NCBI GenBank assembly: GCA_016841765.1
Contig: JAENYN010000004.1
Span: 1-64,000 of the forward strand
Length of the DNA: 64,000 bases
Direction of reading: 5' to 3'
Origin: Guptibacillus hwajinpoensis
Lineage (GTDB): Bacteria; Bacillota; Bacilli; Bacillales; Bacillaceae_O
The number at the start of each line of letters is the position of its first letter. The first letter of the stretch is position 1. Made by a program: the position numbers and the translations under genes. The notes beneath the pieces are model-generated. The model had not been told where the DNA came from. It was given only the letters and a program-made list of their open reading frames with translations, and did not search any database. This document shows positions 8,368 to 17,745 of the stretch, piece by piece.

Positions 8368-9243
8368 ATTAAAAGATGTAAAACTCCGGTTGGGCTGTAA
8401 TTAAACTATTCTACACTTCAGTATGATTCCCTTTTTGTCATGCATTGAACCCTTTTCACATAAGAATTGCCCTGTGAACTGCAAAAAGCGGGAGTGACGG
8501 GGAAGAGAGCCGGTTTGCTTTTTGACTGGAAACGAACGGCGGTTGAAAAAGTCATGATTTAGACACAAATTTATATGTGCAGTAAGTGGATATTGGTTCT
8601 TCGATTGAATGTTGGACTTTCATCCCAGTGGCGGGGAAAAGTGGTGCTGCGGGAACTGGCCTGGCCGGACTGGGGGCCGGAGCGGAGTGTTGCTGCAGAC
8701 GGTTTTCTTGCGGCAGCTCATCGTTTTCATGTCAAAGGTATTGATTTTTAAGCGAAAATCGGGAAAATTCACGCCGGTTTGTGCCAAAGTGAGGGCGAAT
8801 GCTGCCATACCTGGCAGGCGGAGAAACCCTGTGGGGTGGTTTTCGCGCGGTAACTTCGTGCTTTCACGCCGCTGATACAGATTTTCAAACCAAACCCGGG
8901 AAACATCACGCGTGAGAAACGTTATTTCACGCCGTATCACCCGTTTCATGCCTGAGTGAAGGTTATTCACGCCATAACGGGTTGTTTTCCTGCCAAAGGA
9001 TAGCCGGGTGTCCCGCCAGATTAGTGAAGCGGAGAAACCCTGTGGAGTGGTTTTCGCGCGGCAACTTCGTGCTTTCACGCCGCAGATACAGATTTTCAAA
9101 CCAAACCCGGAAAAAATCACGCCAACCAAATGTTATTTCACGCCGTCTAACCAATATCGCCACAAACTAAAGGAAATTCATGCCATAACGAGGTGTTTTC
9201 ACGTTCTTTTTTCCATTCACTGCCGCCCCGCTGCGATTTGATT
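8368..9243. repeat. Gene-free region with ~118-bp direct repeats and a TTTCACGCC motif field
   Basis: About 880 bases without a credible gene. Bases 8818-8935 recur at 9029-9146 (offset 211) with only scattered differences in most of the unit, including the shared blocks GGAGAAACCCTGTGG and CAGATTTTCAAACCAAACCC. The motif TTCACGCC or a one-base variant occurs about eleven times between 8768 and 9205. Short frames here read through the repeats and have no family resemblance. Confidence 0.8.
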
Positions 9244-12464: not shown

Positions 12465-12686
12465 TTATAATACGCTAGTCTCCATATACCACATAATTGT
12501 AAATAGTCAATTTTTATTTATACTTCCTCTTTCTGAATGGTTTTAAAAAACTTTTACATAGACTCCCAAACTGTTATCCATAAAACGGCCCCCGCCAAAA
12601 GGAAAGATTAAAAATCTATCAGCAGTCATGAATCTTCCAGACTTCTCATAGAATAGAGCAAAATGAGTATTTGGGGAGTGGTCGAT

Positions 12687-13145
12687 ATGGTAAAAAAAAT
12701 ACGATTTGCCAGCGAAGAGGATCAGGCAAAAATTACAGAAGCGGCACAGGCAGCCGGAGTTCCGGCAGAAGATACCGGCAAAGACGGGACATTCCTGCTG
12801 ATGGAAAATGACGACCGGTCGATAAGCGCCGCAATTGGCATAAAAGTGAGTGGAAAAGAGGGGCTGCTCCGAACTTTTATTCTATCACCCGGAACAGCTC
12901 CATCAGATATTTTGCATTTTTTCCAACAAACCGTGGCGGCTGCGGAAACGACCGGGGTGCGCCAATTGTATCTTGTGACACCGGATCGGCGGTTTTCACC
13001 GTTTTTTGAAGCGTTCGGTTTCAAACCGATGGAAAATCTGCCGGAAGAGCCGGTGACAGAGATGCGGGAAAAGATTCATGAGCTTCTCTGTTCGAAAGAT
13101 GAAGATGGCATGTTGTTATGTTATGATTTTGATATTGTAAGTTAG
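12687..13145 (+). CDS. ywlB: GNAT-like N-acetyltransferase (YwlB)
   Basis: A 152-residue protein with the general layout of a GCN5-related acetyltransferase: strands and an acidic N-terminal half, a central LLRTFILSPG segment in place of the acetyl-CoA strand, a helix (FFQQTVAAAETTGVRQLYLVTP) and the C-terminal FFEAFGFKPM signature. Position between spoIIR and ywlC matches B. subtilis ywlB. The substrate is unknown. ATG at 12687 follows GGGGAGTGG; an ATG at 12663 in the same frame lacks a site. Confidence 0.8.
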   Translation: MVKKIRFASEEDQAKITEAAQAAGVPAEDTGKDGTFLLMENDDRSISAAIGIKVSGKEGLLRTFILSPGTAPSDILHFFQQTVAAAETTGVRQLYLVTPDRRFSPFFEAFGFKPMENLPEEPVTEMREKIHELLCSKDEDGMLLCYDFDIVS

Positions 13146-13146
13146 C

Positions 13147-13212
13147 ATGTCCACAAAGTTATCCACTATCTTTATGAAGTTATTCACAAACTGTGGATAT
13201 GTAAGTGGATAT
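13147..13212. promoter_or_regulatory. DnaA-box cluster upstream of ywlC
   Basis: Four near-consensus DnaA boxes lie in 55 bases: TTATCCACT (13159-13167), TTATTCACA (13180-13188), and on the minus strand TGTGGATAT (13192-13200) and AGTGGATAT (13204-13212). A weaker match (ATGTCCACA) is at 13147. Perfect boxes continue inside ywlC at 13324-13332, 13432-13440 and 14047-14055, with a one-mismatch box at 14138. I recall that ywlC carries one of the DnaA-box clusters described in B. subtilis. Confidence 0.8.
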
Positions 13213-13264
13213 CATTAAGGTAGAACGAAAAATAAACCTATTGTACCAGGCCGAGGTGTACGAA

Positions 13265-14323
13265 ATGAAAGATTTGCATACAAAGTATTGGGTTGTGGAA
13301 AAAGAAGGTGGCAGCAGCGGCAGTTATCCACAACTTGGCGAAGCGGCATTGCTGCTCAGAAAGGGTGAAACCGTCGCATTCCCAACGGAAACCGTATATG
13401 GGCTCGGGGCCAATGCCCTGTCTGATGAGGCTGTGGATAAAATTTTCAAGGCGAAGGGCCGGCCCGGGGATAACCCGCTCATCGTCCATATCGCTTCCAG
13501 CAGGCAGTTGGACAGCCTGGCTGTCGACATTCCGGAAACCGCAAAGCGATTAATGGAAGCGTTCTGGCCAGGCCCGCTCACCCTTGTCTTGAAAAGCAAG
13601 GAAACAGTATCGAAAAAAGTGACAGCCGGACTGGCGACAGTAGCCGTCCGGATGCCGGACCACCCGGTCGCGCTTTCCCTGATCGGACAGGCAGGCGTTC
13701 CGATTGCAGCCCCGAGCGCCAACGTTTCCGGACGGCCGAGTCCGACATCTGCTTCCCATGTGAAAGAGGATCTTGACGGAAGGATTGCCGGAATCGTTGA
13801 CGGCGGGGAAACAGGGATCGGAGTAGAATCGACGGTTGTCGATTGTACCGGTGAGATCCCGGTTATCTTGCGGCCGGGCGGCGTTACAAGAGAACAGCTT
13901 GAAAAGGTTGCTGGCCAGGTCCAGGTCGATCCCGCCCTTTCAGGAATGGAAGCAGCGCCGAAATCCCCGGGCATGAAATACACGCACTATGCCCCGAAAG
14001 CGCCGCTGATCATTGTGGAAGGAGACCGGACGTATATCCAGCAGCTTGTGGATAACGCCCATACTGCCGGAAAAAAAGCGGGGGTGCTGACGACTTATGA
14101 ACATGTGGACAGTTTTGAAGCGGACGCCGTCCTCCCCTGTGGATACCGGAACAGGCCCGAAACCGTCGCCCGGGGCCTGTACCAAACACTGCGCCGCTTT
14201 GACGAATACGATCTTGACCTCATTTATTCCGAATCTTTTTCCGAAGAAGGCGTCGGTGCCGCAATTATGAACAGGCTGGTGAAGGCGGCCGGCCACCGCG
14301 TGATTAAAGCAGAAACAGAGTAA
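13265..14323 (+). CDS. ywlC: L-threonylcarbamoyladenylate synthase (YwlC, Sua5 type)
   Basis: Makes threonylcarbamoyl-AMP from threonine, bicarbonate and ATP, the first step of t6A modification of ANN-decoding tRNAs. The 352-residue protein has the YrdC/TsaC domain (about residues 25-215; FPTETVYGLGANA, KGRPGDNPLIVH, AAPSANVSGRPSPT) and the C-terminal Sua5 domain linked by PGMKYTHYAPKAPL. ATG at 13265 follows GAGGTG and fits the B. subtilis protein; an earlier frame start at 13205 lies inside the DnaA-box cluster. The gene body itself carries several DnaA boxes. Confidence 0.95.
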   Translation: MKDLHTKYWVVEKEGGSSGSYPQLGEAALLLRKGETVAFPTETVYGLGANALSDEAVDKIFKAKGRPGDNPLIVHIASSRQLDSLAVDIPETAKRLMEAFWPGPLTLVLKSKETVSKKVTAGLATVAVRMPDHPVALSLIGQAGVPIAAPSANVSGRPSPTSASHVKEDLDGRIAGIVDGGETGIGVESTVVDCTGEIPVILRPGGVTREQLEKVAGQVQVDPALSGMEAAPKSPGMKYTHYAPKAPLIIVEGDRTYIQQLVDNAHTAGKKAGVLTTYEHVDSFEADAVLPCGYRNRPETVARGLYQTLRRFDEYDLDLIYSESFSEEGVGAAIMNRLVKAAGHRVIKAETE

Positions 14324-14331
14324 GGATGTAC

Positions 14332-14369
14332 AATTCCGGATTGGCCTTGTAGCTGGTCCGGGATTTTTT
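14332..14369 (+). terminator. Intrinsic terminator of ywlC
   Basis: AATTCCGGA pairs with TCCGGGATT (one wobble) and runs into T6. Confidence 0.65.
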
Positions 14370-15988: not shown

Positions 15989-16450
15989 ATGAAAAAGATA
16001 TTATTCGTTTGTACCGGCAACACATGCCGCAGCCCGATGGCCGAAGCACTGCTGGCAAATAAGTCACAGGGAAAATATGAAGCGAAATCGGCCGGAATCT
16101 ATGCAGCCGGCGGGAGTGCTGCCTCATCGCAGACAGAGCTTGTCCTGAAAGAACTTGGCATTCATATTGACCATGCATCTTCACCGTTGACAGAGGAACT
16201 TCTCGAGTGGGCCGACCTGGTGCTTACAATGACGGAAAGCCACAAAAAGATGATCGGCCGCGAGTATCCGCAAACGCTCGATAAACTTTTTACACTGAAA
16301 GAATATACAGGCGGGGGCGGCACGGCGGGAAAAGATGTGTCCGATCCGTTTGGCGGCTCCGCACAGGTGTACCGGCAAACGAGAAAAGAGATTGAGGCGG
16401 AGGTAGACCGCCTGATAGAAAAGCTGGAGGAGAATGAGGGGGAAAGCTAG
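15989..16450 (+). CDS. ywlE: Protein-arginine phosphatase YwlE
   Basis: Removes phosphate from phospho-arginine residues set by the McsB kinase, balancing the ClpCP degradation tag and CtsR control. The 153-residue low-molecular-weight phosphatase fold has the P-loop CTGNTCRSP at residues 8-16. The threonine at position 12 is the residue that favours phospho-arginine over phospho-tyrosine in this family. The general-acid loop is [11 protein letters not shown] follows GGGGAGGAA. The stop overlaps the next gene's GTG start (TAGTG), so a chemoreceptor is translated right after it. Confidence 0.95.
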
Positions 16451-17745
16451 TGAAGCCGCAAAGAAAACATCGGTTCAGCCTGCGCTGGAAACTGGTTGTG
16501 TTTGTCACCATCTTGTCGCTTGTCACTTACACAATCAGCGGATTGGTCGTTTTTGTCTTGTACGATCTGATCAAGGAATTTATACCGTTTGGAGAAATGA
16601 CGTTCACCATTATCACGATGATTCTCGGAATCATCTGGACAGGCATTCTCGGCTTTTTTGCCGCAGGCACACTTATTAATCCGCTGCAGCGCCTGGAAAA
16701 GACGGCCCGGCTTGCGGCAGCAGGCGATATCTCACAGGATGTGGTCGTGTCCAAGTCGGATGACGAAATCCGTTCGCTTGGCCTTGCTTTCAACGAGATG
16801 CTGGGTAATTTGCGCAGTTTAATTGAAGGTATCAATCATAATTTTGAAGATACGAACCAAAAAGTAGCTGAAATCACAAAAGGCTCATACATAGCAAACG
16901 AACAGGCGGCTAACATCAGCCGGACAGTTGAAGAAATCGCTTATGGAACCGAACAATCAGCAGCTTCAGTCCACGGTGCCGCCCAATCCGTGCAGCATTC
17001 GGCCGCCATCGCCGGCAAGGTGCAGGAAGAAGCGGAACAGACCCGGAAGCTGTCAGCAGATATGGTGGAAGGGCTGAAAGAGAATCGCAAAACCATCGAA
17101 TCACTCATCCACGGCATGGAAAAACTGTCGGAAGGCCAGCAAACATCGCTTCATGCTGTCAACCGGCTCGAAAAAAACGCCAGGGAAGTGGGCGAAATCA
17201 TTTCGCTTGTCGGGGAAATTGCGGAACAAACGAACCTGCTTGCCTTAAATGCATCCATTGAGGCGGCCCGGGCCGGCGAGCATGGCAGAGGCTTTGCGGT
17301 CGTTGCTGATGAAGTCAGGAAGCTGGCCGATGAAAGTGCGAAGGCCGTCAACGGCATCTCGGCGCTCGTCAACACCATCCAGCAGGAAGTGAAAAATGTC
17401 GTCACCCATATTCACCAACAGGTCGAAACGGCAGAAACCGAAGTGAAAAAAGGCTCCGCCGCCAGCGAAGCAATCAATGAGATGGCAGCATCGATCAGCA
17501 ATGTCGCTGTATCCGTTGAGAAAATTACGGGACATGTGAATGAACAGTTAGAAAATATCCAGATGACGGCCCGCCAATCCGAAACCGTTTCCGGTTTGAT
17601 GGAAGAAACATCAGCCGGTACAGAAGAAGTGGCTGCGTCAATCCAGGAACAAACGGCAGCCATCGAAAACCTTTCTATTGTTTGCGATAAGCTCGCTGCA
17701 AGCGCCGAGCTACTGAAAACCGGCATCAAACGATTCAAAGTGTAA
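16450..17745 (+). CDS. Methyl-accepting chemotaxis protein with minimal sensor
   Basis: A 431-residue receptor. Two transmembrane helices (about residues 13-39 and 50-72) are joined by only about ten residues, so there is no periplasmic ligand domain. A HAMP region follows (about 72-125, [19 protein letters not shown]), then the long helical signalling domain with the conserved tip [20 protein letters not shown] and the flank [15 protein letters not shown]. It should couple to CheW/CheA and sense something in or near the membrane or cytoplasm. The GTG start overlaps the ywlE stop and follows GAGGGGGAAAG. B. subtilis has rpiB (ywlF) after ywlE; here that gene is absent. Confidence 0.93.

Follow-up and report, generated by a model that had tools for sequence, protein, structure and literature searches.

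Clusters of DnaA boxes away from the replication origin are known from Bacillus subtilis, where DnaA region 6, with nine sites, lies upstream of ywlC and downstream of ywlB (Smith and Grossman 2015, PMC4447404). DnaA binds the ywlC region both in vitro and in vivo; the region is among the eight strongest in vitro, those eight are readily detected in vivo, and ywlC appears to be repressed by DnaA directly (PMC4447404). ywlC is also on a list of genes directly regulated by DnaA (PMC8203912), and its expression drops as DnaA rises (PMC12112137). With respect to initiation timing, removal of six clusters leads to early initiation (PMC13220808), and another article, citing Okumura 2012, describes early initiation after deletion of six clusters outside oriC, which a single cluster, placed at various sites, partly relieves (PMC5295017). 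B. subtilis cells that lack ywlC show an induced stringent response (PMC4634966). The role of the Bacillus clusters outside oriC is debated.

We analysed a window of 64,000 nucleotides (the whole stretch of DNA studied) from Guptibacillus hwajinpoensis, for which a sequence-only reading had proposed a conserved DnaA-box cluster at ywlB-ywlC. That reading had placed ywlC among the B. subtilis clusters and had linked such clusters to initiation timing; the former agrees with region 6 (PMC4447404), and the latter with the six-cluster deletion as described in PMC5295017, citing Okumura 2012. The ORF whose 3′ end abuts the cluster (12663..13145, + strand) has the position of ywlB and gave no Pfam match, and the name is therefore by synteny only. 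The gene ywlC (13265..14323, +) encodes a threonylcarbamoyl-AMP synthase (TsaC/Sua5) of 352 aa, with PF01300, PF03481 and Sua5/YrdC-type PDB matches. A GTG at 13205 was considered as its start and ruled out, because the sister species (genome G017) has an in-frame stop between 13205 and 13265. We therefore place the start at ATG 13265, which makes 13147-13200 intergenic and the remaining six boxes of the interval coding, in line with the earlier claim of boxes inside ywlC. Matches of YwlC to solved structures begin at residues 23-29, so that the boxes at codons 10-13 and 20-23 sit in an N-terminal extension. A weak terminator-like hairpin follows ywlC (14332..14365, +; one found, where shuffles give 2.8). 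Elsewhere in the window, a methyl-accepting-chemotaxis-like ORF (16450-17745; so named from sequence only) stands between ywlE-like phosphatase and ywlG-like ORFs, and at 8620-9163 the ORFs upstream of prfA contain recurring peptides such as RVWFENLYxRRESTKLPREN, in what looks like a repeated non-coding element.

Within 13147-14146, four boxes match TTATNCACA perfectly: core box C in the spacer (TTATTCACA, 13180..13188, +), and three coding boxes, at codons 20-23 (S-Y-P-Q, the -58 position, 13324..13332, +), codons 56-59 (A-V-D-K, the +50 position, 13432..13440, -) and codons 261-264 (L-V-D-N, the +665 position, 14047..14055, -), the last of which is common to the sister locus (L089) and L103. 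Five more have one mismatch. These are core box B (TTATCCACT, 13159..13167, +), which has an identical non-consensus form in several relatives; core box D (ATATCCACA, 13192..13200, -), inverted and 3 nt from C; the box at codons 10-13 (TTTTCCACA, the -88 position, 13294..13302, -), unchanged in the sister; and two weak coding boxes, TTATGAACA (14095..14103, +), which may be a chance match, and GTATCCACA (14138..14146, -) at the +756 position, where several relatives have ATATCCACA. Two matches with two mismatches were read from the sequence, at 13204-13212 and at 13147..13155 (+); the latter, the degenerate ATGTCCACA, matches the conserved core in position and is our box A. The sequence-only reading had counted at least seven matches, three of them perfect, with four packed in 13159-13212. 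The clustering stands and is stronger than claimed, but the perfect boxes number four rather than three, and of the four packed boxes three have at most one mismatch whereas the fourth (13204-13212) has two.

The check proposed with that reading, a comparison with shuffled and genome-wide background, gave an excess over both. In 1000 dinucleotide shuffles of the 1-kb segment, perfect boxes averaged 0.019 (maximum 1) against four seen, and boxes at up to one mismatch averaged 0.55 (maximum 4) against nine; none of the 1000 shuffles reached the observed counts. Across the genome there are 218 perfect boxes in 4.27 Mb, or one per 19.6 kb, and 76 occurrences of a reversed control pattern. The clustering at ywlB-ywlC is well above both the shuffled and the genome background.

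For comparison across the class, the ETVYGLG motif served to align 80 named loci and others from the order and class, giving a set of 180 ywlC loci of Bacilli with pairwise DNA identity below 80%. Perfect boxes concentrate in the spacer and at the beginning of ywlC (first ~100 nt): among 78 aligned loci the spacer bin has 1.97 of them per locus and the first coding bin 1.32, with flanking bins mostly near 0.01. At least two spacer boxes occur in 154 of the 180 loci, and 124 of those 154 also have a perfect box in the first ~40 ywlC codons; a coding box alone was found in 2/180 and neither set in 24/180. The conservation that had been proposed for a distinct species, coding region included, thus extends over much of the class. 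The cluster-less loci are mostly outside the window's order, and those of group f50 are among them. Even at 66-71% GC (L223 and L224), perfect boxes upstream of ywlC are kept, about one helical turn from a neighbouring box.

The spacer boxes have a fixed geometry. In 103 loci with an alignable inverted pair (3-nt gap), the consensus has two direct boxes upstream of that pair, at 12-nt and 3-nt gaps, and a promoter consensus, TTGttt-17-TATAcT, begins 3 nt after box D, which sets the core directly against the -35 element and leaves the coding boxes downstream of the start; a -10-like hexamer occurs at that exact offset in 39 of the 103. The window keeps the 3/12/3-nt gaps exactly, including the 12 nt from B to C, by a criterion that was derived here from the relatives and not from literature. 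Three of its four core boxes (A, B and D) and its -88 box are off-consensus, and a consensus scan and a reading of the alignment revealed no recognisable sigma-A promoter in its spacer at the usual offset.

The coding boxes likewise hold fixed codon positions relative to ETVYGLG, which answers the proposal to compare box positions in the ywlC of other Bacillaceae, and they do so in differing codon frames and peptides. The -88 and -76 boxes, on the reverse strand, give VDK/VDN, the -58 box reads xYPQ, the -69 box reads LST in the B. subtilis group, and the -32 box reads LWI/MWI. We compared these boxes with a synonymous null, in which each protein was fixed and codons were redrawn from local usage in 400 draws. 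The N-terminal parts of the 180 loci hold 194 perfect boxes where 21.7 are expected (maximum of the draws, 38); by position, the -88 box is perfect in 64/180 loci (7.0 expected), the -58 box in 57/180 (7.0) and the +50 box in 10/180 (0.9), all of these counts being inflated by shared ancestry of the loci. Among 869 other ORFs of the same loci there were 48 boxes against 28.5 expected (~1.7 times), with three missed ywlC genes still included, and within 40 codons of the start of other ORFs there were 14 against 2.1. Five of those 14 are ywlC itself in three loci missed by the filter, and 5 of the remaining 9 lie in one gene of related loci and probably go back to one ancestor. A thymidine-kinase-like ORF of ~200 aa has one perfect box at nt 110, in its 5′ part, in the five related loci L005, L010, L011, L012 and L015, a sharing that probably reflects common ancestry. 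Mapped on a tree that excludes the N-terminal columns, the -88, -76 and -58 boxes show 32, 26 and 32 changes of state, respectively, and they are therefore not one inherited event. Compensation between coding boxes (-32 against -58 was considered) was not significant on the tree; loci with at least one coding box are about as frequent as independent boxes would make them, and we do not claim compensation.

Comparison with a single sister genome within the genus (locus L089; YwlC identity, 85%) gives a similar picture at short range. None of the 54 bases of the six coding boxes has changed, against 183 of 1002 (18%) in the remaining CDS (Fisher p 5e-5), and at third positions 1/21 changed in boxes, counting a seventh box at 14265, against 121/331 outside (p 0.002). 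The -58 box is unchanged while 9 of its 24 flanking bases differ. The block 13100-13223, spanning the end of ywlB and the core, differs at 2 of its 124 bases, and one of these two lies inside box C.

This locus is the Bacilli ywlC DnaA-box cluster, and we consider it probable that it acts as a DnaA reservoir near oriC that also represses ywlC, with coding boxes under selection. In this reading a four-box core, two direct boxes followed by an inverted pair at 3/12/3-nt gaps, directly precedes the ywlC promoter, more boxes occupy the first ~40 ywlC codons, and some species have boxes deeper in the gene. In G. hwajinpoensis, we infer that DnaA would bind both the core and the coding boxes; the bound DnaA would be kept from oriC, forming the reservoir, and ywlC would be repressed from both sides of its promoter, as boxes flanking a promoter would be consistent with a repressing nucleoprotein complex. 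Selection on the coding boxes would in turn have constrained the N-terminal extension of YwlC, in its codons as well as in short peptide motifs.

One alternative is that the cluster merely stores DnaA near oriC, and that repression of ywlC is a by-product, which we regard as a real though not a probable possibility. It draws on the early initiation seen when six clusters are deleted and the partial relief that a single cluster gives from various sites (PMC5295017), and on the position of ywlC, which remains near oriC at 69-604 kb from dnaA (median 197) in 24 genomes; in the source assembly of our window, the window (C74) and dnaA (C75) are on separate contigs. Boxes deep in the ywlC body also exceed the codon null (80 observed, 9.7 expected), and a cluster lies 3′ of tsaD (gcp), where control of that gene is not expected, in 25/29 Bacillales loci (L084:4396-4646, L244-L272). 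Storage alone does not need the exact core-promoter spacing found in many relatives, however, nor does it explain why the cluster stays with the same gene across the class. The G. hwajinpoensis genome also has counterparts of the B. subtilis clusters at oriC (L085), upstream of mnmE/trmE (L087) and 3′ of tsaD/gcp (L084). An htrA-family protease gene is followed on its 3′ side by four perfect boxes (L082:4737-5071, G000:C10), a cluster which, from gene order, we take to be the probable counterpart of the B. subtilis yydA/yyzF region. A further five perfect boxes in ~360 bp (L083:4434-4918, G000:C19) adjoin the 3′ end of an rlmCD-like gene; this cluster is outside the eight strong regions of B. 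subtilis, the listing for that species giving just a weak site ‘inside rlmCD’.

It is also conceivable, if rather unlikely, that the boxes serve to tune ywlC expression to DnaA activity and affect free DnaA little. That would fit a core abutting the -35 element in many relatives, as well as the repression of B. subtilis ywlC by DnaA, with expression falling as DnaA rises (PMC12112137), but it leaves aside boxes that run hundreds of bases into ywlC and the similar cluster 3′ of tsaD. Titration and control of ywlC are compatible and not exclusive, and sequence alone cannot tell them apart; the reading that we prefer, a reservoir that also represses ywlC, includes both.

Could the coding boxes instead simply follow from conserved protein motifs (VDK, YPQ) together with codon bias? 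The motifs are indeed common in box-bearing loci, but with the protein fixed the boxes still reach about nine times expectation, compared to ~1.7 times in other genes, and the coding boxes are thus conserved beyond codon choice. In addition, loci that lack the spacer cluster seldom have the motifs: YPQ-like motifs occur in 0/26 loci without it and in 74/154 with it, and VD[KN] in 2/26 and 107/154, respectively, though the cluster-less taxa are also distant. We consider this explanation very improbable, and the DNA-binding sites appear to constrain the YwlC N-terminus. Both the background counts and the conservation rule out a chance cluster, for which we found no supporting point and whose probability is negligible.

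The stringent response slows replication. Beyond our main reading, we hypothesize a feedback from DnaA through ywlC to the stringent response, in which more free DnaA would mean less YwlC and t6A, more (p)ppGpp and slower replication. The fuller proposal, that the boxes in ywlC codons are an ancient part of the cluster dictating the N-terminal peptide of the enzyme and that this feedback operates as well, is speculative, and we think it doubtful as a whole.

The cluster type itself is already known from B. subtilis ywlB-ywlC. Its class-wide conservation, the fixed geometry of core and promoter, and boxes that constrain codons and peptides were not found in a search of mainly freely accessible papers; Okumura 2012 and Ishikawa 2007 may mention part of these features. 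Given the debate over clusters outside oriC, conservation across the class together with selection at synonymous sites argues that the ywlC cluster, at least, matters in nature. The coding boxes give exact bases that can be mutated without changing the protein, and they offer a clear case in which an array of DNA-binding sites constrains protein sequence in several codon frames. With the cluster at tsaD, two t6A genes (tsaC/ywlC and tsaD) have conserved clusters, and this shared pattern points to a possible connection of replication control with translation that can be tested.

Among systems described elsewhere, E. coli datA and DARS are likewise arrays of DnaA boxes outside oriC that affect initiation (PMC5295017). 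They act on the nucleotide state of DnaA, through DnaA-ATP hydrolysis or exchange, whereas the ywlC cluster is not assigned such an activity. The closest counterpart is the B. subtilis ywlB/ywlC region, with which our locus has in common the gene neighbourhood, the box consensus and the presence of many boxes ahead of ywlC; in B. mojavensis (L078) the same core occurs, plus a coding LST box. Compared to the B. subtilis region, boxes A, B, D and -88 are weaker in G. hwajinpoensis, a promoter is not recognisable at the standard offset, and additional perfect boxes stand in the coding sequence, at +50 and +665.
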